64,000 nucleotides of DNA from Vitis vinifera (taxonomy: Eukaryota; Streptophyta; Magnoliopsida; Vitales; Vitaceae): NCBI RefSeq assembly GCF_030704535.1, contig NC_081812.1:18609501-18673500 (forward strand), written 5' to 3'. Below, piece by piece: positions 13,788 to 47,190 of the stretch. The notes under the pieces are model-generated. The model was not told where the DNA came from, did not search any database, and saw only the letters and a program-made list of their open reading frames with translations. The translations under genes and the position numbers were made by a program. The first letter of the stretch is position 1, and the number at the start of each line of letters is the position of its first letter.

Positions 13788-16700
13788 TCATTTGGCTTGT
13801 GGATGGGTTGAGATATAGTCTATGAGATGAGCTGCGGTTGAAATTTTGTTTGCTTCAGTGTCAGGGATGTCGACCGCAAATTCTTCTTCCACAGCCATCA
13901 TTACTTCCACGTTGTCTAACATATCTAGTTGTAAGTCATTCTTGAAACTAGCTGTTGGACTAACCTGTAAAATAATGTTAATTTTCATGTTTACCTCTCA
14001 CACATTTTTATACAAGGAAAATAATCAAATATATTAAGGATCCACAAAGTCAGGAATTGTGAATTTGGAGGTGTTGATATCATGCAGCTGTCACCAACAA
14101 CAGTGTACAAAAATGCCAAACATACATTTCACTCCTTGTCTTGGTTTTTAATATTTCAGTCTTATCAACAGGAAAAGATCCATAATCGGTAGTTTTCTTT
14201 TCTTTCTTTTTTTTTTTCTATATTTTATATATGATCTTGTATTGAAATTCCAATTAAATTTAAGGTCGTTCTAATTGCCAGAATGACCGAGCAATGTGTT
14301 TCATCATGAACTCCACAAAAGAAGGAAAGGAAAAGAAGAAAAAAAAAACATTTGCAAGAACATAAGATTTGGCAATTTCCAAATCCTATATTCTTGCAAA
14401 TATTTTTCTTTGATGTTCTTTTTGATATATTCTCTCATTTTGCCTGTCAAAAAGAACATAAGATTTGGTAGAACCAAAAGCAATCATCCAAAAAGTTGAG
14501 GAAGAAGAGAGAGGTGGTTGGTGTGTGCATGCATGCATGGGTGTGTGTTTGAGAGTGCAAGAGCAGGCGCGTGTTGGGGAAGGGAAGGGGGTGGGAATAA
14601 AAATTTCTAGTCTTATATATTCTCCCAGCAAGCAAGCAGACTGGAAGGTTTCATGGATAAAGTGGCTTTTGTTGTATACTGTTTGATTCTTATTTAATTG
14701 CAGCGGATTGAATAGCCAGCAGAAACGGAACCAGGTCTCAGGTCAGAGAATAGAACCATTCACAGTAGAAAGTAGAAAAAAACGTCATCCTCTCCTATCT
14801 GCCAAATGCCACCCCATCAGTGGTCACATTCAGCAACCCCAAAAATAACATTCTCAGAGTCCATTGAGAGTTTTAAGTCCTTAAAAAGGTCTTTTTTAAG
14901 GACAACTCTCTGTCGCTTCTTTTCTTATTTTTCCTTACCATGCATGCTATGCAGGTTCGTGGGTTGCACCCCCTTTAGTGTCCGTTGTATGCCTTTTTAT
15001 ATATATATATATATATAGATAAAGAATCAACTTGTGTTAAAAAGAACTGCTAAAAGAGGGACTCAAGGGATACAAGAAACAAACCTCCCTTCGCCTCCAA
15101 GGCTCAAACAGGAGAAAAATTTACAATTTAGTGTCCTTCATATGTGATCTCTACTTATTACATACCAAAGAAAACTCTGGAAAAGGTGGCTTTGAGCTAG
15201 GTGAAAGGATTAGCGCTCCAGAATTCTCACCTATGCAAGCAGAAAACACCTACTTCTAGAACCCTATCCATAAACTTACACATGCTAATGAGTTTGATAA
15301 ATAATTTGTCCAATGGATGATTTTTCCTGTCAGAGGCTATGCTCACCAGAGATTCCTCCTGAAAGGATGGAATCTGAACTCCTCCAACATGTCCCAAGGG
15401 GGCTACCTGAGGTCTCAAGTGAACCCCCAGGGAATCTGCCTAATAAGGGCCAGCCGGTATTCGCAAAGGCCATATGGATTTCCCCCAATACCCAATAAAC
15501 TCAAATATCATACAGAAGGAGCAAGTCTCACAGCATTAGCACAAAAGCAGTAAGCCTTTCCTGCTTTTATTTTTATATTTGAAAATAATAAAAATGATAA
15601 GGGAAAAAAAGAAAGAAACAAAAAATTGAATATCTTACCATTATCTTGCAATTCTATGGATGAACTAGCATAACCAAATAAATTAGCGGCCAGTATTGGA
15701 TAGCTTTGAACTTCTACTTTTAACAATAGAAATACAAATAAAAGTAGTTACTATTATTGTGTGATTGAATTTATGCTAAGGAACTATATTTTAAAATAAC
15801 TTTTACTAAAAAACAAGGATAATGACACCTATCAAAAAAAAGAAAAAAGGATAATGCCATTTTTAAAATTTTTAATTGAATAAAAAACTACTTCCCGAAT
15901 CATGTTTGAAGAAAAACAAGAGTCTCCGCAGCTTTCCCAAACGTAGATAAATCACGTTTAAAAGTGTGCCACCCACATCTAAGAGTTCTATCCAAGCACC
16001 TTAAAAAATTCATGTGACCTTCAAACGTTGCTTTAAACATTTAGGCTATGTTTGATTCCTATAAAATATGAGGGATAGAAAATGGAGAGGAAAAATGCAA
16101 GGAAAGAAAGAGTGAAAGAAATTAAAAAATAGATTTAAAGTCAATAAAGTAATTTTATAAGCTACTTCAAACTCATTGTACTTATTTTAACTATTTGATA
16201 TAAAGATTAAAAAAAATTGAAAAAGTCTAAATTTTTAATTAATTTTAATTATATTTCATTTTCTTAGATATTCTCTATAGGACAACCAAACATAAAAAAA
16301 TAATTTTCCTTAACATTTTTTTCTTTTCTTAGTAACCAAACATAATCTTCAAAAGCTATCCCACATAGGGCATAGTTAACATAGTGTCTAGTGTCTCAAA
16401 TTAAATTAAAAATAGCCACCATAACAGAGATAACATGGTCCAATCAAGAAACATGTCAGAGAAGTACAGAACAAAAAATAGGTTCCATGAGGTACGCAGC
16501 TCTCAAGTTGAGGCCTCAAAAGATGACCATTATCTAAACCTCATCCCGGGAATCATTCACTTATGAGTTTAATACAAAATTCTTTAAAGATTCTGGTTTT
16601 TTCTCTTTGTGACAGCCTCCATCACTCCACCTAAGGCAAGCCTCGCAAACAACTACAAAACTTACCATATGAACCCATCCTAGGGCTTAAAGGCCTCCAA

Positions 16701-18135
16701 GTGAACTAGATTCTCAATGAAGTTTAAGGTGTTCGCCACTTACCCTTCTCAAGGCACATGAACCTCTAAATAGGATTTCATGTAGGCTCAATTATGTTGA
16801 GCTGACAGCCTCGGCATTACACAAGGATATTAACTACATGTGGAAGGCCTAGAAGACTCCTGCCTGAAACCCATACGTCTCCCCAAGAGACCAAATAGAA
16901 CCAAACTGACACCATAGGCCACCTTGAGGGTCAAACAGCCCTATATAGGTCAGTAAGGCCCAGGCAATTGATGGAACTAGACATCCCTTCCCAGGCTCCC
17001 TTGTTAACATTCCTAAGTATAAGACCTTGGTCCACAGGCCTTTGCCCTAAATCTTTCATAGACACTACATGGTTTGAAATGATCCCTTGTCCCCACTATA
17101 CAAAATTGTATTGGATCTAAATACACTTGCTCAAAGTCTGTGGATAGTATCAATGACATTCTACGTCAGTTCATTTGCTTGCCTTGAAGTATCCTCCTTA
17201 ACTGCATTAATGTTTAAAGAGTGATACCTAATCTAAAATGACAACCAAGGGCATGCTGATTGCATCCAGTTCGATTTCGATAATGAAAAACCCTTCAAAC
17301 TGGAAGTTTGTAGAAGCTCAAGTTTACACGTAAAAACAATGCAAGGTCAAAGATAAAGGAAACAAGGATGCCTGAAAGCCCTAGCTCAGTACTATTCTAG
17401 TTTTTTAAGGAAGCTAAATGGGATTGATCAGTTTTCTATTTTTACATTTAGAGCTGTAATTGATTGATATGCCCACATAATTATGTGATATGAATGAATC
17501 CCTACAGAAGAAAAAAAATCAAAGATCGAAGCAAGTAAATAGAGGTATAGCCATATAGGTAAAATAAGATGTCATTCAATCAAATATCATAATGAAATGA
17601 GGCATAATTCTCCTTGAGAATCCACACTGGAAATCACGGACACCTAAAAGATGTGGTCCATATTCAAATCCCAACAATTTTCAGAATCCCAAATTAAGAC
17701 TCTCATTGGTGGCTGACAGGGAGTAAAAAAAAGAAAAAAAACGAAAAAGGAGAATGAAACTTGGAGCCCTACACCATGAGTTGTTAAGGCTAGGCGAAAA
17801 CGAAAAAACTGAACTCTTAATAAAGTAATTTTAATTACCTGCATTTTCTCGGGAAACAAACGGAAACGATAGAAGGGAAAGAGAGAAAATACCTTGGAGG
17901 GATCAATAAAAGGGGTGGATTTGAGGAGATGGATAATGCGAGAAGTGACCTCCTCCTTTTCCAATAAAGAGGAGGGCGAGGAAGCTGCAGCTGCTGATTG
18001 CGAGAAAACCCTAGCTCCTCCCATAAACCCTAGCACAGTTGCCCCTCTTTTGCTGCTGCTGTTTAAGCAACCTGCTCGACTCCATTGAGCCCAACAACGT
18101 CTCAGCCCTCCAATTCCACCTCCAACACCTTGCAT
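13788..18135 (-). CDS. Mitochondrial acyl carrier protein-like protein lacking the phosphopantetheine serine
   Basis: Two exons: 18135-17893 (81 codons) and 13964-13788 (58 codons plus TGA), joined in phase 0 across a 3.9-kb intron (donor TCCAAG|GTATTT, acceptor TTTTACAG). Product: 139 residues. Residues 1-55 are Arg/Ser/Ala/Gly-rich with few acids, like a mitochondrial presequence. From LLEKEEVTSRIIHLLKSTPF onward it is an acyl carrier protein: DPSKVSPTASFKNDLQLD, then NVEVMMAVEEEFAVDIPDTE, ending ISTHPQAK, much like plant mtACP2. Mitochondrial ACPs carry acyl chains for octanoate/lipoate synthesis and act as complex I subunits and partners of LYR proteins. The carrier motif DSL reads DML here (Met 96, codon ATG), so no phosphopantetheine can attach. 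The start is the ATG at 18135; upstream in-frame codons have only GTG. Confidence 0.85.
14999..15017. repeat. TA dinucleotide microsatellite
   Basis: About nine TA units inside the long intron of the acyl carrier protein gene. Confidence 0.85.
16041..16347. mobile_element. MITE-like non-autonomous DNA transposon, copy 1
   Basis: A ~307-bp AT-rich segment opens TTAGGCTATGTTTGATTCC and closes with GTAACCAAACATAATCTT, an imperfect terminal inverted repeat. The interior aligns by eye along its length with 50675-50990 (shared tracts include CTACTTCAAACTCATT versus ATACTTCAAACTCATT, TTAATTAATTTTAATTATA, and CATTTTCCTTAACATTTTTT at the second copy). It has no coding capacity. It lies in the acyl carrier protein intron. 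I could not fix a target-site duplication, so the superfamily (hAT- or Harbinger-like) is open. Confidence 0.6.
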
Positions 18136-20783: not shown

Positions 20784-22723
20784 TTAGTTGCAGCCTGGTT
20801 CAGTTGCGAGGCTTTTCAACGTGACGGAGTCCGAAGCAACAGATTGGTCATCATCATTCCTATGCCACGTCCACTCCATCGTGTTCCCGTCCACCACATT
20901 CAACTGCCCATGTCCAAAGCTCGCCTCTCTGAAGAGTGAAATATCGGGTTTTGGGTCAATGTACCTGCAAAATTGGTAGAAATTAAAATCAATACAATGG
21001 ATTAATCCAAGTGGGTGGTAGGGATGATAGAAGTTTAAGCAGCTTAATCACTTGGTCGCAAGGCCTTCTCTGTTGCCGCCGTCCCCAATGGTTATATAGA
21101 CGGGACCACACTTGTCAGTTTTGCCTTGATAAACTCGGTCCTGCAGTAAATGAGAAGCAGAGACAATGGAATTAGTGTGATTTGATTGAGATATGGGTGT
21201 GATTCGTGAAGATGGGGGAAGGGAACTTACAAAGCGCTCATAAGCATGGACGTGGCCAGCAAAGACGACATCCACTCGAGCTTTATAAAGTATTTCTTCC
21301 ATGGAGTCTCTCATTCCATCTGATTCTTCCTCACCCTGATGAGCGGAATTAGAGTTGTACCATGGGGCATGGAGCATCACCACCAGCCAGGGGGTTCTCT
21401 TCCGATCAACTTTCCCCAAATCCGCTTGAAGCCACTTGTACTGGTCGGAGTCTGAGCCAAAGTCACTGTATGATCCCAACACCACCACATGAACTCCGGC
21501 AACTTCAAAGGAATAATAGAGGTTCGAAGTAGAGCCACTCTCCTCAAAGGGCATGTGCCATCTTGCATTGTAGGATGTGCACTTCTCCGGGTGGACAACG
21601 ATGATTTTCTCAACGTCGTGGTTGCCTGTCGCGGTCATCCAAGGCCTCTGGCTAGCCAGGGGCTCAACCAGCCGCCCAAAAGAGTCCCACAATGGCTGAT
21701 AAAAATCTGCGTATGACAAGTCTCCGGCCAGAAGAAGCAAGTCGTAGTTGGATTTGGATATGTGGTCCAGGGTGGACTTCGTCCATTCCGTCTGTCCAAA
21801 ATCACCTGTACATGCATGAAATGAAATCCAACCTGGTATCATCCATCCACAATATGAACTGAAATTAAGAAGTGGTGGCATATACGGACCTGCAACTGCA
21901 ATTCTGATGGGGAACTGAGAAGGTGGGGTTTTGAAGCTGAATTCGGGACCGGAGGAGCCACAGCGGTAATAATATACAGTATTTGCGTTCAATGGTCCAA
22001 TGACCACATCGTGAATTGTGCCCGATGTGTACACGACATACTTGTATGAACGGGTACTCCCGGTGGCAGAGCTGCCAAGTTGGCCTTGAGCTGTCCCATA
22101 ATGTACTTCTGCAGGAGTTTCATCCTTGGTCACCCATGTTATTCTCATCTTGTCTGCTCCAACCATGGATATATGCACCTGCATCGTATGCGCAACAGAA
22201 AAATTCAAAGCTTTCATTTATTTATTTATATTGTCCCTCCCTTAAATTTAGACACATCATCCATGCATACTCATCAGTTGGCTATTCTAAACTTGTAACA
22301 ACATTTTTGAGAATTTTCACGCCAGTAGAAATTAGAATTCCCACCCCAAATTTCAAAACCAAACAAAAGACTAGTTCACGAGAAAATGAATTTGATCCAC
22401 CCCAACACTCAACTTGCAGCCAACCTCAAAGTCAGCCCATCCAATCCCAACCCCCCTAATCCTCTTTTCCTAACCGCCAAACACTCTCCCTCACAACCCA
22501 GAACTCCCCCGCTTCTCAGTGAATCAGAAAGTAAAACGAAGAAAAATTCAGGCAGAAACAACAAGATTGAAACCTGTTCCGGATGAGTGGGATCCTGATC
22601 GTCGTCGTCAAGGACGATATACATTTTCCGGGCCGGTGGGCGTTCATACGCCATACCAGTCCCAATTAGTTGTGCAACTACCATGGCCAATGCCAGTAAA
22701 CTAAACCAGGTCTTAACCGCCAT
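20784..22723 (-). CDS. Purple acid phosphatase A (PAP18/PAP22-like)
   Basis: Secreted or vacuolar binuclear metallophosphatase that releases phosphate from organic esters. Five exons: 22723-22574, 22178-21890, 21805-21231, 21140-21052, 20964-20784; phases agree and give 427 residues. Residues 1-25 form a signal peptide (FSLLALAMVVAQLIGTGMA). A fibronectin-like N-terminal domain (about 50-140) precedes the catalytic domain. All seven metal ligands are present: Asp148 (GDFG), Asp175 and Tyr178 (GDLSY), Asn208 (GNHD), His292 (MLHAPWY), His331 and His333 (GHVHAYERF). The last exon has the FGHGQL motif. Length fits the Arabidopsis PAP18/20/21/22 subgroup. A TATA-like TTATATAT lies 38-45 bases upstream of the ATG. 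It is nearly identical to gene B at 26784-28714 and sits in the left arm of the segmental duplication. Substrate preference cannot be read from sequence. Confidence 0.93.
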
Positions 22724-25700
22724 AGCCACCAACAAGAAGGAAGAGCAGTGGAGGAAGTGTATATATAAGATACGGAGCATTTAACCCGATTCCTTTATGT
22801 TGGCTGAATATAACATCTAAGATATTATATTCTTATCTTTTGGTTATGAAAATATCCAACTAAATATGTGATTACATAAGTTGTGGGATATATTATGGAC
22901 TCTCGTTTTCTATCCAAGATATGTTAATATCTCCTATAGGTATTTTAATTTCGTGTTAAGATATGAGATATATATATTCCATATTCCATATATCATAAAT
23001 TTAATTTTTTTATCAATTTTATTATATATTAAATAATATAATATATAAATTTTTTATTTATAAAATTTAAATATTTTAATCATAAATATGGTTAAATATA
23101 AGAAAATTTTCAATTTTTCAAATAAAAAATATTGTAATATGATATGATTTTTATTTTAAATGTTAAAAATAATATATTTCATATTATTTTTTATTCATTA
23201 AATATATTACCTTAAAATATCATAATATCTTAATATATCATATTTTATTAAAAATTATATATTAGGATATAAGATTTCTATGAAAATGGGGGAAAAGAGA
23301 ATTCAATTTGGAAAGATTTTAATTATTAAAAGTAAATAAAGAAAGCCAGGGAACATCAAAAGTAATTACAAGATATTTATAAATTATAAAGACCTTTTCT
23401 TTTATCACAACAAGTCGTCAAACTTTACTTAATATGGTTTCCAAAGATTAATTGTGATAATATTGTAAATTAAAAATTAGGGAAAACATGGTGTCCATGA
23501 CTATCGAAGCCCGTGTTAGCTAAAGAATATGACATAGAAAACATAATTTAAAAATGAGTTGGATATACAAATAATTACAAATTTGGATATTCCATAAACA
23601 TATGCTTACATCATTTATGTGTTTAAATTATTTGAAGTTAATTATATAATTTTAGAGTAAAAGATAGTATGAATCCACATTCTTCATGTACATCCCCGTT
23701 TCACAACAAGACTTATTTTTATGTGAAAATTTGATGTTTTGAAAAAGTTGGAATTGCTCATTGTTTGTAAAAGAGAAAACAAAATAAGAAATAAAATTCT
23801 AATTTGGTTTTTTTTTTTAAAAAAAAAAAAAAATTTTGTAAACAAAAACCGGATTCAAGGATTAGGTTAGGTTACCTATTAGAAAAATACATAAGCCCTA
23901 ACACTATTCTAAATCTGTATACCTATGATATCTACTAAACAGATAAAGTGAATTATGATAATTAATTAATTATGAATATTAAAAAATAATAATATAATCA
24001 CATGAAATAATGCAAAACAAATTACAAAAATATATAAAAATGATGCATGAGAAATACACAAAATAATTTATTAGAAAGATTTTATTATTTCAAATATCAT
24101 GATACAATTTTCAAAAGTTTTCAAAGAATTATTTAAGTTAACAACAATTTCAAATTAGTGATTTGAATTTATTTATTCATGATGCTTCAATTTGTTTATA
24201 AAATATTTAATTTTATTTACAAGAAATGATTTTTATTTACTAAGAAGTGTGAATTTTACAAATTTATTTTCAAAAATGTTTTGATCCAATTGTTATTTTA
24301 TTTAAATAAAAAAATCTACAAACTTAAATAAAGATATTTACAAATTCGTAAAAAGGAATTTCAACCCAACTTTATTAAAAATATTGTTTTTTGATTTTAT
24401 GTAGAAAAAGATTCTTTATTATCAATTTATTTAGAGAAATAATTTGACAAATTTATTCCCAAAGATTACAATTTTATTAAGAAATATTTTTTGAATTTTA
24501 TTCACAAAGAGATTAGTTTGCCAATTTATTAAAAATAAAATAAAATCTTTCAATTAAATTCTTATTTAAAATTTGATTTCATTTACAAAGGAATCGATTT
24601 TTTTTTTTTTTTTACAAATTTTATTTACAAAAATGTAAAAAATTATTTTTTTGGACGATTTTATTAAAATTAATTTTTTGGATAATTTTATTTATTTCTA
24701 GGTAATTTTAATTAAACAAATAAATTTCCAAATAGTAGTTATTAAAAACATTTTTTTAAACAATTTTATGGATTCCTCTAAAAACATTTTTTCAAATTTT
24801 TATTAAGAAAGCTTTCTTTTATTAAAAATAATATTTTCTTAAACTATTATTTTAAGAAAACATGATTGTTGGACCGTTGATTTTATTAAAACAAAATTTC
24901 TAAACTATTAAATATTTAGGAAAAAGTCAGTTTTGACTCACAAATTTGATAAAATATAACTTTTATAAATAAATTTTATGTTCATTTATTTAAAAATATT
25001 TTAAAATACATGCATTTTTCTATAAGTAAAATATTTATTTCTTGAAATACCCTTTGACTTGATAATATTAAATAAAATTATCAAAAAATTAATTTATCAT
25101 TTTCATTTGATAAAAATATCTTATAAATAAGCATATTATAATTTTTTTTATTATATAATATTAGATACAAATCATTTTGAAAAAATTCTTTGGAATCCTC
25201 AAATAATAAATAAAATATTTTTAATTCCCTAATTAATAATAATTTTAAATACTCATCTTCTCTTTCTTTTTTTCTTTTAATAAATTTGAATAAAAATTTT
25301 ATTAGTTAGCATCAACAATAAAATAAGAAATTTTAAAAATTAAAAATAAATACTTAAAAAATAAATACAATTTAAAAAATTAAAAATTAAATACAATTAA
25401 AACCAAAAAACTTAAAAATGTAAAAATTAAAATATTGATTTTTATTGTATTTCCAACTCTTTCTCGATATCTATATTTTTTATTAGTATTATTTAACAAA
25501 GTGAAAGTTAATATTTTATTTCTATATTTTTAGGTTTAAAGTTTTTAAAAAAATTTTAATTATATTTTTCAATTTCTTATTTTAATAAATTTTAAAAAAT
25601 TTTCAATTGGTATTATTATTCGAACAAGTAAAAAAGTCATTTTATGAAATAAATGTAATTTGTGAAATAGTATATGTATTTTAAAATAATTTTAGATAGA

Positions 25701-26783: not shown

Positions 26784-28714
26784 TTAGTTACAGCCTGGTT
26801 CAGTTGCGAGGCTTTTCAACTTGACGGAGTCTGCGGCAACTGATTGGTCATCATCATTCCTATGCCACGTCCACTCCATCGTGTTCTCGTCCACCACATT
26901 CAACTGCCCATGTCCAAAGCTCGCCTCTCTGAAGAGTGAAATATCGGGTTTTGGGTCATTGTACCTGCAAAACCGAAAACAGTAGTTGGTAGAAATTAGA
27001 ATCAATACAATGAATTAATCTATGTGGGTAGTAGTGATGATAGAAGTTTAAGCAGCTTAATCACTTAGTCGCAAGGCCTTCTCTGTTGCCGCCGTCCCCA
27101 ATGGTTATATAGACTGGACCACACTTGTCAGTTTTGCCTTGATAAACTCGGTCCTACAGTAAATGAGAAGCAGAGACAAGGGAATTAATTCAATAGTGTG
27201 ATTTGATTGAGATATGGGTGTGGTTCGTGAAGATGGGGAGAAGGGAACTTACAAAGCGCTCATAAGCATGGACGTGGCCAGCAAAGACGACATCCACTCG
27301 AGCTTTATAAAGTATTTCTTCCATGGAGTCTCTCATTCCATCTGATTCTTCCTCACCCTGATGAGCGGAATTGGAGTTGTACCATGGGGCATGGAGCATC
27401 ACCACCAGCCAGGGGGTTCTCTTCCGATCAACTTTCCCCAAATCCGCTTGAAGCCACTTGTACTGGTCGGAGTCTGAGCCAAAGTCAGTGTAGGATCCCA
27501 ACACCACCACGTGAACTCCGGCAACTTCAAAGGAATAATAGAGGTTCGAAGTAGAGCCACTCTCCTCAAAGGGCATGTGCCATCTTGCATTGTAGGATGT
27601 GAACTTCTCCGGGTGGACAACGATGATTTTCTCAACATCGTGGTTGCCTGTCGCGGTCATCCAAGGCCTCTGGCTAGCCAGGGGCTCAACCAGCCGCCCA
27701 AAAGAGTCCCACAATGGCTGATAAAAATCTGCGTATGACAAGTCTCCGGCCAGAAGAAGCAAGTCGTAGTTGGATTTGGATATGTGGTCCAGGGTCGACT
27801 TTGTCCATTCCGTCTGTCCAAAATCACCTGTACATGCATGAAATGAAATCCAACCTGGTATCATCCATCCACAAAATGAACTGAAATTAAGATGTGGTGG
27901 CATACACGGACCTGCAACTGCAAGTCTGATGGGGAACTGAGAAGGTGGGGTTTTGAAGCTGAATTCGGGACCGGAGGAGCCACAGCGGTAGTAATATACA
28001 GTATTTGCGTTCAGTGGTCCAATGAGCACATCGTGAATTGTGCCCGATGTGTACGTGGCATACTTGTATGAACGGGTACTCCCGGTGGCAGAGCTGCCAA
28101 GTTCTCCTTGAACTGTACCATAATGTACCTCTGCAGGAGTTTCATCCTTGGTCATCCATGTTATTCTCATCTTGTCTGCTCCAGCCATAGATATACGCAC
28201 CTGAATCATATACGCAACAGCAAAATTTAGAGCTTTCATTTTTTTTATCGTCTCTCCCTTAAATTTAGACACATCACCCATGCATACTCATCAGTTGGCT
28301 ATTCTAAATTCATGCCAGTAGAAATTAGAATTCCCACCCCAAATTTCAATACCAAACAAAAGACTAGTTCACGAGACAATGAATTTGATCCACCCAACAC
28401 CCAACTTGCAGCCAACCTCAAAGTCAGCCCATCCAATCCCAACCCCCAAATCCTATTTTCCTAACCGCCAAACACCCTCCCTCACAACCCTGAACTCCCC
28501 CGCGTCTCAATGAATCAGAAAGTAAAACGAAGAAAAATTCAGGCAGAAACAACAAGATTGAAACCTGGTCCGGATGAGTGGGATCCTGATCTTCGTCGTC
28601 AAGGACGATATACATTTTCCGGGCCGGTGGGCGTTCATACGCCATACCAGTCCCAATTAGTTGTATAACCACCATGGCCAATGCCAGTAAACTAAACCAC
28701 GTCCTAACCGCCAT
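26784..28714 (-). CDS. Purple acid phosphatase B (PAP18/PAP22-like), tandem duplicate of A
   Basis: Same family and role as gene A. Exons: 28714-28565, 28200-27912, 27827-27253, 27153-27065, 26964-26784; each has exactly the length of its partner in gene A (150, 289, 575, 89 and 181 bases), giving 427 residues. The signal peptide (FSLLALAMVVIQLIGTGMA) and all seven metal ligands are kept at the same numbers (Asp148, Asp175, Tyr178, Asn208, His292, His331, His333). Differences from A are scattered: Arg for Lys at residue 4, DDEDQDPTHPDQ for DDDDQDPTHPEQ near residue 45, Phe for Cys at 222. No disabling change is seen. A TATA-like tract lies near 28766-28773. One P1BS-like motif (GGATATTC, 29295-29302) sits 581 bases upstream and matches one of the pair upstream of A. 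Confidence 0.93.
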
Positions 28715-29294
28715 AGCCACCAAGAAGAAGCAAGAGCGGTGGAGGAAAGAGGGAGGAGGAAGGGCCTATATAAGATAAAAATCACTTGACCCGTTTCTTT
28801 AGTTGTTTGAATTCTGGTGTTTAATTTTGAAATTGTTTATATGGCATATGTCATCATGGTCACGGTTGTAACGTTTCACGCAAATCCAGTGTCGTTCGGC
28901 TCTGGACATCTCCTTACTTTCCACGTAATAAATTTACGTGTTCACATGGTTAGTAATTTTGCCAATTCCAAAATGCGTGATTCATGCTTTTTCTGGAGGC
29001 TTATTTTTCATAAATTCTCATGGGGGCAAAAAGAGAATTCCATATTGAAAGATTTTAATTATTAAAAGTAAAAAGAGAAAAGGCAAGGATCATCATAAGT
29101 AATTATCAGATATTTATTTAATTTAATTATAAAGGCCTTTTTCTTTCATTACAACAAATAGTCAAACTTTACAAAGATTAAATGCGATAATATTGTAAAT
29201 TAAAAAAAGTAGAGAAAACATGGTGCCCAACCCTTGACTTTCCAAGCCCTTGTTAGTTAGAAAATGAGTTGGAAGTGCATATGATTACAAATTT

Positions 29295-32970: not shown

Positions 32971-35488
32971 CATTTTCTTCTATGAAATTTCATCCTCCAT
33001 GTGTCACAAATTCATTCTCAATTAACAAAATATCAATAATAGTATTGAAATGGACCCATGCAAAGCAAAAATGAATCCAAAGTAAATATCCAAAAATGTG
33101 TAAAGCCTAAAACAAATATTCAAACCCAAATTCAACAAGTCCGATGACGAAGTAATGAGCTCAAACCCAAATGAATAATCCCAACAAAAATATCAACAAT
33201 CTAAAATCATAAGGTCCCAAATCAATTAAAATCAAACTCAAAACAAACATCCAAAAACCAACATGCCCAAGGTTAAAAGTCCACAAACAATATCCAAAAT
33301 CCAAATATCAATAAATTTAAATTAAATAAATCAAAATCAAAATTATAGAACAAGCTTAAGATCAACATCTAATATACAAATTCTAAGTGAAACAAATATC
33401 TAAGCTCAATCAAGCAAACTCAACAAAATATGAACAATTAATATAGAAAGAAAAAATAAAATGAATAAATAAATAAGAAAATGAAAAAGAACAACTTACT
33501 CATTTCTTGAAGAAACTGTGGACGGGAGGTGGGAAGGAGTGGTAGTGGAGGTAAGGGAAAAAGAAGAAAGTAAAAAAAAAATGAAAATGGGTGAGGTGAG
33601 AGGAAGTGAGGGAAATATAGAGAAGCGAGAGAGGAGGGAGAGATCAAGGAAGTGAGGAAGAGGGGGGGAGCTGGCGGTGAGGTGTGAGTGGGAGAGAAAA
33701 ATGGGAGAAAGATAAGAAAGGAAAATGGACTTGAGGCAAATTTTGAGATCTACGAGTGGATAATGATTTCATAATTACAAAAGTTAATTAAAATCTCTAA
33801 ACCTTTATCTTATATGGTAATTAGTAATTAAAAAAATTACAACAAAATGAATTGAAAAGAAGGAGGCTGTAGACCACGTGATGATCATATTTTTTTTTTC
33901 TTTTTAAAATTTCATATGATTAAATTATGGGTATAAAAAGTAATTTTTTAGACAAATATGGATTGAAAATTTGGCCATTATACAATTAGAAGATAAAGCG
34001 TGTATAATGTTAATAAATTATTAATTTAATAGTTCGAGTGCATGAGCCATGAATTAAAAGATGGGAAAATATTAAGATATCATAATAGTATTTATCAAGG
34101 TTGAGATTAAGTCCTTGAACGAGTGTACAAGTAAATTAATAAAATTAGGATATAAATAATAAAAATTAAATATATATATATAATCTCTTCCGGCAAAGAG
34201 AGAGAAAAGTAGCAAGTTCCCTCGTGACACACAACACAAGTTATTGGAGTGACGCAACCAACAATCCAAACCAACGGCCTTAATTTCTAAACCCTTAGCC
34301 GTTGAGGGGAAAAAAGAAAATGAATTAAAAGAAAGATACATCTTAACCGTTCAAGTGATAGGGACTCCGTGGTGGACTCATTTCAGGGCATTTATTTGGT
34401 GGAATGAAGAATTAATATAGTGTGCTTTTAACCACATTTTCTTTGGTAAGTGGAATATTGTAATTGCAAATAACTTCAATTGTATTGCACCGACTATACA
34501 CCAACTATTGAAAGAAGGAAAAAAATTAATTTAGACCCTTAATTGAATGAGCTTAACTTGTTGAGTTAGTTCTCCAATCAATTCAACTCTTTTAAAATAG
34601 TATTGACCGTTTGCACTTACAATTTCAAAAATGCTTCCAATTCAAGGTCTAACCTTCTAATAACTTGTATACTCCTTCAAATCTCTATATAAGTCATTTT
34701 TTATAGGAAGTTTTGGCATAAAATGCATATTCATCCATTTAATGATAAAATATCATTTTTAAGCTCAGGTAAAGATAAAGGAAATTAGTTTTGAAGCACA
34801 TCAAAATATCTACACTGTAGTGTATCAGTGAAACCCATCTTACAATGTTTCTTAAGGTTGGTTTGAGAGTATTTTTAAAACACATTTTTAACCTAAAAAA
34901 ATGTTTTTGAAAAAAAAAATTATTATATAACAAAATTTTAAAAATTTGAAAAATCACTTATTCTACTAAAAAATCACTTGTTATGTTTTTTAAAGAAACA
35001 TTTAATAGACGTTTCTCCTAAAAATATTTTTCGTAAAAATGCTGCAAGTAAAAACATTATTAAATACGCTCTTAGATACCTTAAGTCTTTGTATCATCAT
35101 TTTCTTCATATCATTTGAATTTCTCATAAAAACATTTTAACTTTCTTTGGAAATTATCATTCAAACATGAAAACTTCCTTTGATTTAAATTTGCTAGTAT
35201 ACTTAATCTTGTTTTGTAATTTTGTAATTTTGTAATTATTGTCATATAAATTAAATATATAATAAGGGCAAACTTATTATTCATCACATAAAAAAATAAT
35301 AATAATTTCTCGAGGTTAACAACAAAATTTGAATAGAAGTTCAAACTCATCCTTTAATTTCTTCATTTCTTTTTTTTTTTCCCCTCCCATATTTCCCCTT
35401 ATTCTATCTGATCTCATACTTCCCTTGAGCTTTCTGATTCCAAACATACAGACCAGAGAGGATGACTTTTACATGGTCATTGCTGAAA

Positions 35489-35496
35489 GCATATCC
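35489..35496. promoter_or_regulatory. P1BS-like motif in the phosphatase C promoter
   Basis: GCATATCC fits GNATATNC. It lies 138 bases upstream of the ATG and about 60 bases upstream of the TATA tract, where a real PHR1 site would be expected. Confidence 0.4.
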
Positions 35497-35555
35497 AAAA
35501 TTATGCCAATGCATCTTCCTTGACGCCATTGCTATCCAATTATTTATGTCTTATA

Positions 35556-35572
35556 TTTATATATATATATAT
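35556..35572 (+). promoter_or_regulatory. TATA tract of phosphatase C
   Basis: A TTTATATATATATATAT run ends 55 bases before the ATG; it gives a short 5' UTR starting near 35595. Confidence 0.45.
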
Positions 35573-35597
35573 CCACTCCCAGACTCAGGAGTATACG

Positions 35598-35605
35598 GCA
35601 TATGC
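35598..35605. promoter_or_regulatory. Second P1BS-like motif, at the start of phosphatase C
   Basis: GCATATGC also fits GNATATNC and is a perfect palindrome 22 bases before the ATG, probably within the 5' UTR. Confidence 0.3.
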
Positions 35606-35626
35606 CTTAATTTGCAGACAACAAAT

Positions 35627-38171
35627 ATGGAGAAAAGTTGGCTAACCGTTTCCTTCCATCTCCTAACCATCTTATCATCAATTCAACTTCCACGGTCACA
35701 TGCATCTTCTGATTATTCCAGACAGCCACCTCGAAGGCTCATCTTCACTCCGCACCACCGATCGGACTCCGATCCTCAACAGGTTATTAATATCTCTGAT
35801 ATTCTTTCTCCCTCTCCCACATCTCCATAATTATTCTTACATGAACTGCCCTTTTGCTTATTTTTTGGTTTCTTCCTACGGTCATGTTAGGTTCACATTT
35901 CGCTAGTGGGGAGGGATCGCATGAAGGTTTCATGGATCACCGACGATAAAAGCGCACGTTCCATAGTAGAGTATGGAAAGATGCCCGGAAAATACGAAGC
36001 GTCTGCGACAGGGGAGCATACCTCGTATAATTACTTCTTTTACAGCTCCGGCAAGATTCACCATGTTGAGATCGGACCGTTGGAGGCTGGGACAGTGTAT
36101 TACTACAGATGTGGAGGTTCTGGGCAAGAATTTTACTTCAAAACACCTCCTTCCAGCTTTCCCATTGAATTTGCAGTGGTTGGTGAGTTATGTGTGTGTT
36201 GGACATTTACCAAGACATGGTACCAAATTAATGAGTTTGCCATCAATAAATAATAGCGTAAACATTGTGTGTGGGTGGGTGTGTTGGTTCATGCTTTAAG
36301 CTTACGCAAAACGGCTAAAAAGGAAAGCGATACGTATTTTTTTCCTTTTATACTTGCTTTCATATGTATATGGCATCTATAACATTATCTTCATATAAAA
36401 ATTAGAAAATAATAATAATAATTAAGTGTTGCTTTCTAATTACTGGGGAGTGTGGCAGGAGATCTAGGGCAAACAGAATGGACAGCATCGACCCTGACGC
36501 ATGTCAACAGAACAAACTACGACGTGCTTTTATTACCCGGTGATCTCTCTTATGCCGATAGCCATCAGCCCCTTTGGGACTGCTTCGGCCGCCTTGTGGA
36601 GCCGTACGCCAGCCACCGCCCCTGGATGGTCACTGAAGGCAACCATGAGATTGAGATCTTCCCCATCATCTACCCCGATGGCTTCAAAGCCTTTAATTCC
36701 AGGTGGCCGATGCCTTTCCAAGAGAGTGGCTCCACCTCCAACCTCTACTACTCTTTTGAGGTTGCTGGGTGCCATGTTATCATGTTGGGTTCTTATGCTG
36801 AGTTCGATGAGAAATCCGCTCAGTACAAGTGGCTGAAGGGGGATCTGGGTAAGGTTGATAGGAGGAGGACGCCGTGGCTTATTGTGCTCATTCATGCGCC
36901 ATGGTATAATACTAATCTGGCCCATAAGGGGGAAGGAGAGAGCATGAGGAAAGCCATGGAGAAGCTGTTGTATGAGGCTAGGGTTGATGTGGTTTTTGCT
37001 GGCCATGTTCATGCCTACGAACGATTTGTGAGTCATTTATTCAATTTGCTTTCACTTATTTGGTTCCTCCAATTGGTTTATATCATATTTTCATTCATTT
37101 TTATTTTTATTTTTATTTTTTTTAAGTAGGCTAGTAACGATTGAAGCATTTATTCACTAAATAATAACACAAATAGAGTCGATTTTAAGATGTTAGAAAA
37201 GAAATTAAGTTCAAAAAAGAACTAGGAGAAATCACTTAATTCTAATATAATTGTTTTTGCTGGAAAAGGGGGGAAAAGCCTATAAGGGTATGCCTGCTTT
37301 TCCCTCTTAGGAAAAAATAACTTGTTTTACAAACTGCTTTCATTTCTATTTTACTGCAGACAAGGGTTTACAAGAACAAGGCAGATGAATGCGGGCCCAT
37401 ACATGTGACAATTGGGGATGGAGGAAACAGAGAAGGACTTGCTTTAACGTGAGTATTCTTAAATTTGAACTCTTGACTAAATTGGGCCCATCGAACATCT
37501 CAGGAAAATGAGTCATTTGTGTATTGATTTTGATTGCCTTGAAATTCACCAGTGTGCTGTGTGCCCACTCACTGGATTAGATCATCCAAATATTAAAATC
37601 CAACACGGTGACCCCCATCCCAATTCTAATTTCAAAAAGGAATTGAGGGCCAATCCAATCCGAAACTCAGCTCCAAGGTGGGGTCATTGATAACCATGGA
37701 AATTAAAACCGTCCGTTGAATTCTAATTCTAATTATTCTACATCGGTTTCGACGTGAGTGCCGTGTGAATTTTTTATGCCATGTAGACGAGTCCTTCGTC
37801 TTACACGTTTGCCATGGGGGAGAATATTATTATATTTAATTAAATACATCTTTACAAGTGATCAAGAGTGTAAGCAGTTTGAAAAGAGTAAAAGAAAAAC
37901 AACGGTCTTGTCGTGTTGCTGATGTAGGTTTGAGAAGCCGACAAGCGCCTCCCTCTCAGTGTACAGAGAGCCAAGTTTTGGACATGGGCGATTGAGGATA
38001 TTAAACCAGACGCATGCATTTTGGTCATGGCACCGCAACAATGACTCCGACTGTATTCTGGCTGACAGCCTGTGGCTACAAAGTTTAAGCGTTTCGAGAC
38101 AGTGCACGCAGTTTCAGCAGGATCAAGCATCACTACCACTAGTATCTGTTAACCTTAATGATGAACTTTGA
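35627..38171 (+). CDS. Purple acid phosphatase C (PAP18/PAP22-like), diverged paralogue
   Basis: Same five-exon plan as genes A and B but on the opposite strand: 35627-35782, 35891-36182, 36459-37027, 37360-37448, 37928-38171; phases agree and give 449 residues. Residues 1-27 look like a signal peptide (WLTVSFHLLTILSSIQ). All seven metal ligands are present: Asp151 (GDLG), Asp178 and Tyr181 (GDLSY), Asn211 (GNHE), His295 (LIHAPWY), His332 and His334 (GHVHAYERF). The third exon is two codons shorter than in A and B. The last exon is 63 bases longer and gives an extra polar tail ending LVSVNLNDEL. Exon 2 begins after CATGTTAG, before an in-frame VHISLVGRDRMK. Sequence divergence from A/B shows an older duplication. 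The product is predicted to be an active secreted or vacuolar phosphatase. Confidence 0.92.
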
Positions 38172-39224: not shown

Positions 39225-39710
39225 TCATATCTTGTGCAACTTCTCAGCTTTTACAACAGGATTGGCCTTAGAGATGGCCTCTTTGCCAAGCGTCTTGAAG
39301 TCAAAGGTGCACCCGTGCTGTTCCGGGTACCGGTGGACCCCACAGAACGTGATCCCACACCTGCACCGGAACCCGGTCAATCCCACCCTTTTCCGACAGG
39401 TGGAGCACCTGTTCGGCTGTGTCGCCGAAGGTGACGGTACAGCGGCGGTCACAGCCGCCGGAACAGTGATTTCATTGGCCGCTTCCGGTAAGGTTAAAGC
39501 GGGTGGGGAGAGAGGAGCTGTGGAAGAGGAGGCGGCTGAAAGCGATTTCTCCACCGCGGATTTGGCAGAGGAGGCTTGTTCTTCTTTGAGACGGAGGTCT
39601 CTGTAACATTTAGAGCAAAGGTTTAGGGTCGCTGGACTTCCGAAAAAACCGCAGTTGTTGGCGCAAAGGCGGTGGCCTTCGGGAGCTTCGCATCTGTGTT
39701 CTTCCGCCAT
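39225..39710 (-). CDS. A20/AN1 zinc-finger stress-associated protein (SAP)
   Basis: Plant SAPs carry an N-terminal A20 and a C-terminal AN1 zinc finger. Several bind ubiquitin or act as E3 ligases and raise tolerance to cold, salt or drought when induced. The product has 161 residues, typical for the family, in one coding exon. A20 finger: Cys16, Cys20, Cys32, Cys35 (spacing CX3CX11CX2C). AN1 finger: Cys102, Cys105, Cys116, Cys118, Cys123, His126, His132, Cys134. The linker is Ala/Ser/Pro-rich, as usual. The C-terminus (ISKANPVVKAEKLHKI) is typical. An intron interrupts the 5' UTR: acceptor TTTTTGCAG before the exon starting at 39798, donor CTTCAG|GTACAA after the leader exon ending at 40089. 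This UTR intron is common in SAP genes. Confidence 0.93.
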   Translation of the reverse strand: MAEEHRCEAPEGHRLCANNCGFFGSPATLNLCSKCYRDLRLKEEQASSAKSAVEKSLSAASSSTAPLSPPALTLPEAANEITVPAAVTAAVPSPSATQPNRCSTCRKRVGLTGFRCRCGITFCGVHRYPEQHGCTFDFKTLGKEAISKANPVVKAEKLHKI

Positions 39711-40250
39711 TTCCAGATCAGATCTGTGTTCTTCTCAAGAATTGATAATTTCGAAAAAGAAGTAGCAGATCTATCCGAGGAACAACAGGATCGTCGATCT
39801 GCAAAAAGAAATTCGAAAGGATGAAGAAAAAAACAAAATTTTACTGCAAAAAAAGTTCACGTAAATCCCCTGTTTGGTAGCCGAGAAAACAGAGGACAAT
39901 CGAAACCTCAATCGCAAAGAGCCAAATTTAGAAAAAATCACAACACGAGAGGCATATGGTTTGAACATCCTTATACCTTTCCTCCGTTCACTCGTCAAAA
40001 TTCGCATCAATGAAACGAAACGGATCGATCCATCAAAGAAAGAAACATAGAAACGAATAAATGGGGAAAAAGGAAAATAAAATTGTACCTGAAGAAAGGG
40101 TTAGAAGAATCGCACAGCGAAGAAAAGAAGAACAAGAATCTAACAGGGAAGCATAATCAGAGGAATAATATAGCCATAGAAAGGTAGAGAGAGAAGGGAA
40201 GGGAGAGAGAAATTGGGGAGGAAGGAACGAAGAAAATGGGACAAAAATCA
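39711..40250 (-). other. 5' leader of the SAP gene with leader intron
   Basis: The leader exon ends at 40089, the intron spans 40088-39799, and the second exon carries 88 untranslated bases before the ATG. The leader is CT-rich (40180-40225). The transcription start, somewhere near 40200-40250, is not resolved. Confidence 0.6.
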
Positions 40251-43644: not shown

Positions 43645-46600
43645 AGCAAAAACCATCTGAATGAATTTAATACAATCACAAATCAATTGTCGTCTGTAGA
43701 AATTGATTTTGATGATGAGATTCGTGCTCTGATCGTCTTGGCTTCTTTGCCAAATAGTTGGGAGGCAATGAGGATGGCAGTAAGCAATTCTACGGGAAAG
43801 GAAAAACTCAAGTACAATGATATACGAGATTTAATTCTGGCTGAGGAGATTCGCCGAAGAGATGCAGGTGAAACCTCAGGATCTGGTTCTGCCCTAAACC
43901 TTGAGACAAGAGGTAGAGGTAATAACAGAAATTCAAATCAGGGTAGATCAAATTCCAGAAATTCTAATCGGAACAGAAGCAAATCTAGATCAGGCCAACA
44001 AGTACAATGCTGGAATTGTGGGAAAACAGGTCACTTTAAAAGGCAATGCAAAAGCCCTAAGAAGAAGAATGAAGATGATTCTGCTAATGCTGTAACAGAA
44101 GAGGTACAGGATGCATTACTTCTTGCAGTAGACAGTCCACTTGATGATTGGGTTTTGGATTCAGGAGCTTCGTTTCATACCACTCCACACCGAGAAATCA
44201 TACAAAATTATGTTGCAGGTGATTTTGGTAAGGTGTATTTGGCTGATGGTTCAGCCTTGGATGTTGTGGGTCTGAGAGATGTCCGGATATCGTTGCCCAA
44301 TGGGTCTGTTTGGTTACTGGAGAAGGTTCGACATATTCCTGACCTGAGGAGGAATCTGATTTCTGTTGGACAACTTGATGATGAAGGACATGCAATACTA
44401 TTTGTTGGTGGTACTTGGAAGGTTACAAAGGGAGTTAGGGTATTGGCTCGTGGAAAGAAGACTGGCACTCTATATATGACCTCATGTCCAAGAGACACAA
44501 TTGCAGTTGCTGATGCAAGTACTGATACAAGCCTATGGCACCGTAGACTTGGTCACATGAGTGAGAAAGGGATGAAGATGTTGTTGTCAAAAGGAAAACT
44601 ACCAGAATTGAAGTCCATTGATTTTGACATGTGTGAAAGTTGCATCTTAGGAAAGCAAAAAAAGGTGAGCTTCTTGAAAACTGGCAGGACACCGAAGGCT
44701 GAAAAATTGGAACTAGTACACACTGATTTGTGGGGGCCTTCTCCAGTTGCATCCCTAGGAGATTCAAGGTACTACATCACCTTTATTGATGACTCAAGTA
44801 GAAAGGTATGGGTTTATTTTCTGAAAAATAAATCTGATGTATTTGTAACTTTTAAAAAGTGGAAGGCCATGGTTGAGACAGAAACAGGTTTGAAAGTAAA
44901 ATGTTTGAGGTCAGATAATGGAGGAGAGTACATAGATGGAGGATTCAGTGAGTATTGTGCTGCACAGGGAATTAGGATGGAGAAGACCATTCCTGGGACA
45001 CCACAACAGAATGGTGTGGCTGAGCGCATGAATAGAACTCTCAATGAGTGTGCTAGAAGTATGAGGTTGCATGCTGGACTACCAAAAACTTTTTGGGCTG
45101 ATGCTGTTAGCACTGCAGCTTACCTGATAAACCGAGGACCATCAGTTCCCATGGAGTTCAGACTTCCTGAGAAGGTTTGGAACGGTAAAGAGGTGAAGTT
45201 TTCACATTTAAAAGTTTTTGGTTGTGTTTCTTATGTTCATATTGATTCTGATGCTCGTAGTAAACTTGATGCAAAGTCAAAAATATGTTTTTTCATTGGC
45301 TATGGTGATGAGAAATTTGGCTATAGGTTTTGGGATGAACAAAACAGGAAAATCATCAGAAGTAGAAATGTGATATTTAATGAACAGGTTATGTACAAGG
45401 ATAGGTCAACTGTAACGTCAGATGTTACAGAGATAGATCAAAAGAAATCTGAGTTTGTCAACTTAGATGAATTGACTGAAAGTACTGTCCAAAAGGGGGG
45501 TGAAAAAGATAAGGAGAATGTAAATTCACAGGTAGATTTGAGTACACCTGTAGCTGAAGTTCGCAGATCTTCCAGGAACATTAGACCTCCGCAACGTTAT
45601 TCACCTGTTTTAAATTATCTCCTGTTGATTGATGGTGGTGAGCCAGAGTGTTATAATGAAGCCTTGCAAGATGAGAATTCAAGCAAGTGGGAGTTAGCCA
45701 TGAAGGATGAGATGGATTCCCTGCTGGGAAATCAGACATGGGAATTGACTGAATTGCCAGTAGGAAAGAAGGCTTTGCACAACAAGTGGGTATACAGAAT
45801 AAAGAATGAGCATGATGGTAGTAAACGTTACAAGGCCAGATTAGTTGTTAAAGGGTTCCAGCAGAAGGAGGGCATTGACTACACAGAAATATTTTCTCCA
45901 GTTGTGAAGATGTCAACAATTAGACTTGTACTTGGAATGGTGGCTGCAGAAAACTTACATCTTGAGCAGTTAGATGTGAAGACAGCATTCCTTCATGGTG
46001 ACTTGGAGGAAGACCTTTACATGATTCAACCAGAAGGGTTCATTGTTCAGGGACAAGAGAATCTAGTCTGCAAACTGAGAAAGAGCTTGTATGGCCTTAA
46101 ACAAGCTCCTAGACAGTGGTACAAGAAGTTTGACAATTTTATGCATAGAATTGGGTTCAAGAGATGTGAAGCTGATCATTGTTGCTATGTTAAGTCCTTT
46201 GACAATTCTTACATCATATTACTGTTGTATGTGGATGATATGCTTATTGCAGGGTCTGACATTGAGAAGATCAATAATCTGAAAAAGCAATTGTCCAAAC
46301 AGTTTGCAATGAAGGATTTGGGAGCTGCAAAGCAAATCCTTGGTATGAGAATCATTAGAGACAAGGCTAATGGTACATTGAAGCTTTCACAGTCAGAGTA
46401 TGTGAAGAAAGTTCTCAGCAGGTTCAACATGAATGAAGCTAAACCAGTGAGCACACCCTTGGGTAGTCATTTCAAACTAAGCAAAGAACAGTCACCGAAG
46501 ACAGAAGAAGAAAGGGACCATATGAGCAAGGTGCCCTATGCCTCAGCTATTGGCAGCTTGATGTATGCTATGGTGTGTACAAGGCCAGACATTGCACATG

Positions 46601-47190
46601 CAGTGGGAGTTGTGAGCAGATTCATGAGTAGGCCTGGAAAGCAGCATTGGGAGGCAGTCAAGTGGATTTTAAGATATCTGAAGGGTTCATTAGATACATG
46701 TCTTTGCTTCACAGGTGCAAGTTTGAAATTGCAGGGTTATGTAGATGCTGATTTTGCTGGTGATATTGATAGTAGAAAGAGTACTACTGGGTTTGTTTTT
46801 ACTCTAGGTGGTACAGCTATATCATGGACCTCAAATCTACAGAAGATTGTTACTTTGTCTACTACAGAAGCTGAGTATGTTGTAGCAACTGAAGCTGGAA
46901 AGGAGATGATTTGGCTACATGGTTTCTTAGATGAATTGGGTAAGAAGCAGGAGATGGGCATTCTACACAGTGACAGTCAAAGTGCAATTTTTCTTGCCAA
47001 AAATTCGGCTTTTCATTCAAAGTCTAAACATATACAAACAAAATACCACTTTATCCGTTATCTTGTTGAGGATAAACTGGTAATACTTGAGAAGATTTGT
47101 GGATCTAAGAACCCTGCAGACATGTTGACTAAGGGTGTCACTATTGAGAAGTTGAAGCTGTGCGCAGCTTCAATTGGTCTTCTAGCTTGA
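43645..47190 (+). CDS. Ty1/copia gag-pol polyprotein, 5'-truncated gag
   Basis: The frame is open from 43645, just after an in-frame TGA, to the TGA at 47188-47190, with no ATG that could be the true start. The typical first ~150 residues of gag are missing; the visible part begins in the conserved gag region HLNEFNTITNQL. It continues through the zinc knuckle CWNCGKTGHFKRQC (44007-44050), protease DSGAS (near 44158), integrase with HTDLWGP (near 44719), SDNGGEY and the PQQNGVAERMNRT glutamate, reverse transcriptase with the YVDD active site (46228-46239) and RNase H ending near ADMLTKGV. Order (integrase before RT) and sequence fit the Tork/Tnt1-like copia lineage. Pol looks intact, but without gag N-terminus, its own primer site upstream or a matching 5' LTR the copy should be immobile. 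Confidence 0.9.
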   Translation, partial: SKNHLNEFNTITNQLSSVEIDFDDEIRALIVLASLPNSWEAMRMAVSNSTGKEKLKYNDIRDLILAEEIRRRDAGETSGSGSALNLETRGRGNNRNSNQGRSNSRNSNRNRSKSRSGQQVQCWNCGKTGHFKRQCKSPKKKNEDDSANAVTEEVQDALLLAVDSPLDDWVLDSGASFHTTPHREIIQNYVAGDFGKVYLADGSALDVVGLRDVRISLPNGSVWLLEKVRHIPDLRRNLISVGQLDDEGHAILFVGGTWKVTKGVRVLARGKKTGTLYMTSCPRDTIAVADASTDTSLWHRRLGHMSEKGMKMLLSKGKLPELKSIDFDMCESCILGKQKKVSFLKTGRTPKAEKLELVHTDLWGPSPVASLGDSRYYITFIDDSSRKVWVYFLKNKSDVFVTFKKWKAMVETETGLKVKCLRSDNGGEYIDGGFSEYCAAQGIRMEKTIPGTPQQNGVAERMNRTLNECARSMRLHAGLPKTFWADAVSTAAYLINRGPSVPMEFRLPEKVWNGKEVKFSHLKVFGCVSYVHIDSDARSKLDAKSKICFFIGYGDEKFGYRFWDEQNRKIIRSRNVIFNEQVMYKDRSTVTSDVTEIDQKKSEFVNLDELTESTVQKGGEKDKENVNSQVDLSTPVAEVRRSSRNIRPPQRYSPVLNYLLLIDGGEPECYNEALQDENSSKWELAMKDEMDSLLGNQTWELTELPVGKKALHNKWVYRIKNEHDGSKRYKARLVVKGFQQKEGIDYTEIFSPVVKMSTIRLVLGMVAAENLHLEQLDVKTAFLHGDLEEDLYMIQPEGFIVQGQENLVCKLRKSLYGLKQAPRQWYKKFDNFMHRIGFKRCEADHCCYVKSFDNSYIILLLYVDDMLIAGSDIEKINNLKKQLSKQFAMKDLGAAKQILGMRIIRDKANGTLKLSQSEYVKKVLSRFNMNEAKPVSTPLGSHFKLSKEQSPKTEEERDHMSKVPYASAIGSLMYAMVCTRPDIAHAVGVVSRFMSRPGKQHWEAVKWILRYLKGSLDTCLCFTGASLKLQGYVDADFAGDIDSRKSTTGFVFTLGGTAISWTSNLQKIVTLSTTEAEYVVATEAGKEMIWLHGFLDELGKKQEMGILHSDSQSAIFLAKNSAFHSKSKHIQTKYHFIRYLVEDKLVILEKICGSKNPADMLTKGVTIEKLKLCAASIGLLA

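Follow-up and report, generated by a model that had tools for sequence, protein, structure and literature searches.

The locus described here raises the question of whether a mitochondrial acyl carrier protein (ACP) that has lost its phosphopantetheine serine can be a genuine, constrained gene and, if so, what its product might do. The window, i.e. the whole stretch of 64,000 nucleotides of Vitis vinifera DNA that was analysed and to which all coordinates refer, belongs to an assembly of 495.6 Mb in 21 contigs. Within it lies a two-exon gene on the minus strand, spliced in phase 0 with an open frame, whose product is a mitochondrial-type ACP of 139 amino acids. Its spliced translation carries the motif LQLDMLDNVEVMMAVEEEF, and we refer to it as the DML gene, DML standing in place of DSL. 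Both end points of the earlier note, 13788 and 18135, were exact, and its description of an otherwise good ACP held: the frame is intact, the splicing clean and the start presequence-like. The features are as follows:

17893..18135, minus strand: exon 1, residues 1-81, encoding the presequence and helix I; open frame from an ATG, donor AAG/gtattt, best own-genome match to the spliced protein.
13965..17892, minus strand: phase-0 GT-AG intron of 3,928 bases, at the same position as in the mtACP1-, 2- and 3-like genes of the genome.
13788..13964, minus strand: exon 2, residues 82-139 and the TGA stop, encoding helices II-IV with the altered carrier motif; acceptor ttacag/GTT.
18004..18135, minus strand: predicted mitochondrial presequence, residues 1-44, ending ARVF/SQS, from its basic composition and R-x-F/S.
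13920..13922, minus strand: ATG codon (Met96) replacing the phosphopantetheine serine codon, which reads AGC in each of the three paralogues; serine in all 87 comparators.

The protein is recognized as an ACP even without the serine. It passed the cut-offs of PF00550 (26.2 bits, cut-off 20.8) and TIGR00517 (73.2, cut-off 70.45) and narrowly missed that of NF002148 (70.8 vs 71). On TIGR00517 the mtACP2 and mtACP1 paralogues scored 93.4 and 91.3; mtACP3 scored 75.3, close to the DML protein. When the whole window was searched by tblastn with the mtACP2 exon 2 as query, no alternative exon 2 restoring DSL was found and the sole match was the DML exon. The gene is not a retrocopy, since it has two exons, canonical splice sites and an intron at the shared position; indeed, the phase-0 intron lies at the identical codon boundary in all four mtACP genes of the genome.

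Besides the DML gene itself, the own-genome search clearly matched mtACP exon 2 at three more loci, on C4, C15 and C10; four weaker matches (C14, C5 and two on C1) had E > 0.1. The gene models of the three paralogues have clean splice sites and keep the serine in DSL. Two were named mtACP2-like and mtACP1-like by their identity to Arabidopsis and mung bean proteins; the name mtACP3-like rests on comparison with the Arabidopsis protein. This last naming was aided by a peptide, GGQDQILSR in the accessible text of PMC4986872, beside SSCDQIMDR in this genome. The DML protein is 58% identical to the mtACP2 of the genome over 81 ACP-domain residues. All together, these observations establish the locus as a genuine fourth mitochondrial-type ACP gene.

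The predicted presequence would suit mitochondrial targeting, the 58 residues upstream of the ACP domain containing 6 R/K and no D/E. According to the accessible part of PMC4986872, ICP55 in Arabidopsis cleaves after RX(F/Y/I/L) and before (S/A)(S/T), with mtACP3 among its substrates. The R-x-F/S of the DML protein matches this consensus (PMC4986872, same part) except for the Q that follows the S.

The central claim of the earlier note, that DML replaces DSL through an ATG codon, was confirmed at 13922-13920, where Met96 lies within LQLDMLDNVEVMMA. Its estimate of at least two base changes from a serine codon also stood: AGC, the codon of all three paralogues, becomes ATG by two transversions, via Ile or Arg. 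Serine occupies the carrier site in 87/87 comparators, made up of 7 plant mtACPs and the best 80 of 574 confirmed bacterial loci, the latter fetched with patterns outside the DSL site. Methionine cannot accept phosphopantetheine, and the DML protein would therefore exist in the apo form only. The sequence combined with this established chemistry shows, as the earlier note had maintained for acyl carriage, that no carrier role in mitochondrial fatty acid or lipoate synthesis would be possible for the product.

The codon is known from a single genome copy, and an assembly or sequencing error could thus be invoked. We regard such an error as highly improbable: the assembly has 21 contigs, the two differing bases are adjacent, and the gene around them is spliced and has an open frame. 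A single base error is implausible because further codons close by depart from those of mtACP2, with Gln for Gly at -3 and Met for Val at +7.

Beyond the serine, the pattern of change in the DML protein is not distinctive, because mtACP3 is similar. Relative to mtACP2, the DML protein is changed at 7 of the 27 columns with at least 95% conservation, mtACP3 at 6/27 and mtACP1 at 0/27, the conservation of columns within the fetch patterns being owed partly to how the loci were selected. We also considered refilling of the acyl cavity as a signature of a dead carrier and rejected it: 5 of 13 cavity positions are changed, but so are 6 of 13 in the serine-bearing mtACP3 (judged by eye). The acidic helix after the motif, pointed out in the earlier note, is well kept, as 9 of the 10 acidic residues of mtACP2 helix II/III (columns 37-62) are still acidic. 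For the ACP domain, calculation gives a pI of 4.58 and, at pH 7.8, a charge of -8.6 (mtACP2, 4.24 and -9.7). Acidic residues of ACPs are contact points for LYR proteins, as described in the accessible text of PMC8547962.

The earlier note had proposed a tree with mtACP1-3. A tree was built (LG+G4, 79 columns, 16 proteins: 8 plant and, as outgroup, 8 from the best 80 of 574 bacterial loci), but it left the DML gene unplaced, since its pairing with the own-genome mtACP2, the mtACP1s or mtACP3 was in no case rejected (AU p 0.40, 0.58 and 0.57, respectively). A clade of DML with all three mtACP2s was rejected (AU p 0.023), but since the bacterial outgroup attaches beside mtACP2, the meaning of this rejection is uncertain. 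Amino acid branch lengths were 0.77 for DML, 0.99 for mtACP3 and 0.009 for mtACP2. A search for relatives of the exon-2 peptide returned none, 0 of 28 pattern matches being confirmed in viral_contigs and 0 of 78 in genome_contigs.

The synonymous divergence of the DML gene from the three paralogues is near-saturated (pS 0.70-0.83), which suggests an old duplication. Such an age would suit an ancient plant mtACP subfamily, so far undescribed, that lacks the serine, occurs in many species and is sampled here by one member, its proteins being annotated "acyl carrier protein, mitochondrial-like". A prior database annotation of the DML gene is itself likely, and an earlier description may exist. 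We came across no serine-less plant mtACP in the accessible text of open-access papers, and that of the grape literature combining acyl carrier protein with the VIT_08s0007g gene series, the presumed locus name series, made no mention of the DML gene. ACP family papers, in the parts accessible, report three mtACPs in Arabidopsis, mitochondrial clades mtACP1-3 in Brassica and strong conservation around DSL in sorghum; none of these describes such a clade. Likewise, the BLAST of Falekun et al., run with a parasite query, gave serine-less ACPs outside Apicomplexa from Vitrella only (PMC8547962, accessible part). As the tree cannot place the gene either, we consider an old subfamily quite unlikely; it could overlap with the reading of the protein as an acyl-independent partner or competitor that is developed below.

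Whether the gene is under constraint was addressed with codon models on the four mtACP genes of the genome, using our own scripts and three topologies. Against mtACP2, over 81 codons, pN is 0.27 (dN 0.34) and pS 0.70 (dS about 2.0, near saturation). Under the assumption that DML and its sister are of the same age, a value of omega = 1 for the DML branch was rejected in all three topologies: beside mtACP2, 2 delta lnL was 13.5 with an omega of 0.165 (upper limit near 0.5); beside mtACP1, 28.4 with 0.097 (upper limit near 0.3); and beside mtACP3, 45.4 with 0.059 (upper limit near 0.15). The background omega beside mtACP2 was 0.053. Because the DML value there is three times higher and its upper limit is near 0.5, the branch may be partly relaxed.

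With free branch lengths the DML omega fell to 0.035-0.037 in the three topologies. When branch lengths were unlimited, neutrality was weakly rejected, at a cost of 2.2-2.7 log units (2 delta lnL 5.2, 5.4 and 4.4), and the near-neutral fit required 4-100 neutral substitutions per site on other branches. Branches of this length are not credible, but still reveal the synonymous saturation. In one topology, where no branch was allowed more than 10 neutral substitutions per site, omega = 1 cost 5.9 log units (2 delta lnL 11.8) and the omega limit was near 0.24, values partly driven by the bound. Neutral evolution of the copy, which the earlier note had set against its own interpretation, is thus rejected for the whole branch when sister ages are equal (13.5-45.4) but only weakly when branches are unlimited (4.4-5.4). 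This weaker test does not alter the odds that we give the competing readings, since the equal-age test and the intact frame agree.

Simulations bear on the same point. About 0.3-0.6 substitutions per site would be required if the DML branch were wholly neutral. We ran 20,000 neutral simulations per length, assuming a kappa of 2 and 0.08 frameshifts per substitution, with multi-nucleotide mutations outside the model. The gene survived intact in 56, 31, 17, 5.5, 0.4, 0 and 0% of runs at 0.01, 0.02, 0.03, 0.05, 0.10, 0.20 and 0.30 substitutions per site; at 0.30, survival was 0.2% without indels and none of 20,000 runs with them. Because the equal-age models reject neutrality and a neutral gene so rarely survives, the DML branch as a whole is constrained under plausible, equal-age assumptions. 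Omega is a branch average, blind to the phase after the serine was lost, and constraint in that phase is what we infer.

This late phase is where a gene on its way out would hide: an old mtACP paralogue, long functional, that lost its serine recently and now drifts with its frame intact by chance. Three active paralogues make the DML gene dispensable, the glycine three residues upstream has gone together with the serine, the amino acid branch is long (0.77 vs 0.009 for mtACP2) and may be partly relaxed, and 56-17% of simulated genes stay intact through a neutral tail of 0.01-0.03 substitutions per site. Against such decay, the serine-keeping mtACP3 has an equally long branch (0.99). Moreover, codons two changes away made up 1, 2, 4, 5 and 12% of simulated serine losses at 0.01, 0.02, 0.03, 0.05 and 0.10 substitutions per site, so that only 1-4% would be expected in such short tails (multi-nucleotide mutation being outside the model). 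The two-change codon therefore favours, without proving, the view that the protein was retained on other grounds and had been doing without its serine for a while, and we consider recent decay rather unlikely.

The reading that we favour, tentatively and at something short of an even chance, is that of a fourth mtACP, dead as a carrier, whose apo-only product partners LYR-type proteins or competes for them. The protein would be imported into the matrix, where its retained acidic helix II/III surface might engage a partner, either a LYR-type protein or a complex, that accepts ACP in unacylated form, Met96 filling the space of the phosphopantetheine arm. It could be a structural subunit, or it could compete and so damp acyl-ACP-dependent activation; expression, binding partner and regulatory effect are all presumed here. 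Carrier function would be left to the three serine-bearing paralogues. Indeed, the cell need not rely on the DML copy for carriage, because these paralogues are accompanied by two matches to phosphopantetheinyl transferase, the better of which has two TGA inside the matched stretch (the search was intron-blind). The observation made in the earlier note is confirmed, and its interpretation is partly supported, the structural or competing role being a proposal.

It has been suggested that the acylation of mitochondrial ACP links Fe-S and respiratory chain assembly, via LYR proteins, to the supply of acetyl-CoA. A bolder proposal, which we regard as doubtful, is that this plant lineage split the mtACP jobs: three genes would carry acyl chains, and the fourth would provide a permanently unacylated, constitutive or competing LYR partner, so that Fe-S or respiratory complex assembly would in part be freed from its dependence on mitochondrial fatty acid synthesis. 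A naturally occurring ACP that lacks the serine and shares its cell with active paralogues would offer a ready means of telling scaffold and carrier functions apart. It would also show that the malaria parasites' solution can arise where serine-bearing mitochondrial ACPs persist.

Seven LYR matches were found in the genome, and the basic residue at issue in the parasite was compared in one, the best match (L017). We take L017 to be Isd11 from an alignment made by eye against the human protein. This likely Isd11 keeps a Lys before the LFR motif (MASTPSKSQILSLFR), where parasite Isd11 has changed Arg to Ile. A LYR partner co-adapted as in the parasite was accordingly rejected for the one of seven matches compared.

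Among solved structures, the best match of the DML protein is plant mitochondrial ACP2 (NDUFAB1-type; ACPM2 of plant complex I, PDB 7a23_e; E 6e-25, residues 55-139). It shares with mtACP2 the C-terminus HPQAK and, with the genome's own mtACP2-like gene, the intron position; it differs in the Ser to Met change at the carrier site and in its presequence. Like plant mtACP3 (Arabidopsis At5g47630) it is fast-evolving, and the mtACP3-like gene of the genome also lacks the conserved Gly (Gly to Cys) but, unlike DML, keeps the DSL serine.

A precedent comes from Plasmodium falciparum. As described in the accessible text of PMC8547962, its mACP has Phe113 in place of Ser, binds Isd11 without phosphopantetheine and is essential; Phe113 was modelled packing against Isd11, and both binding and growth are weaker when it is replaced by Ala. 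The parasites of that study have lost mitochondrial fatty acid synthesis. Yeast and human Isd11, by the same account (PMC8547962), associate little or not at all with Ser-to-Ala mACP, which, with the basic residue kept by the likely Isd11 here, argues against a simple Isd11 role. In P. falciparum mitochondrial FASII is lost and Isd11 co-adapted, whereas this plant has three mtACPs with the serine and a likely Isd11 that retains the basic residue; of the features of a phosphopantetheine-independent mACP of the apicomplexan type, the non-modifiable residue is thus present, but neither the basic residue of the likely Isd11 nor the carrier-competent mtACPs and pathway are lost. The parasite precedent would suit a competitor or an acyl-independent partner. 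In both organisms a mitochondrial-type ACP bears a bulky hydrophobic residue at the phosphopantetheine serine site and, by this analogy, the DML protein may work, if at all, like a phosphopantetheine-independent mACP.

At the genome's own serine-bearing mtACP2-like gene (locus L015, on contig C4), exon 1 is present in a second, inverted copy at L015:3084-3290 on the forward strand (G000:C4 about 18725083-18725289), about 2.3 kb from exon 1 of the gene model (L015:784-578). This inverted copy carries an internal stop after MAARNALLKYLRV. The top PP-binding match of the same genome, locus L001 (G000:C6:1978775-1978969), lies inside a 1,018-codon open frame; it is therefore perhaps part of a large carrier-domain enzyme rather than a free ACP.

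The window itself also holds the following features.

Further genes and elements in the window
about 20787-22780, reverse: purple acid phosphatase-like gene or gene piece, open frame
about 26787-28765, reverse: second such gene or piece, open frame and Pfam match
about 35438-38168, forward: third such gene or piece, open frame and Pfam match
39228-39734, reverse: A20/AN1 zinc-finger protein, one open frame
43645-47187, forward: Copia-type retroelement, 1,181-codon open stretch, read by eye
47459-49240, forward: partial second Copia copy, about the last 590 codons, read by eye
55937-56251, forward: SLC35F-like transporter exon
62092-62358, forward: SLC35F-like transporter exon similar to that at 55937-56251

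Two of the phosphatase-like genes or pieces are near-identical and run in the same direction, and one is inverted and more diverged; the Pfam scan covered the second and third, the first being known from its open frame. The second Copia copy follows the 1,181-codon stretch as if by partial tandem duplication, and the two SLC35F-like exons are perhaps a tandem duplicate.
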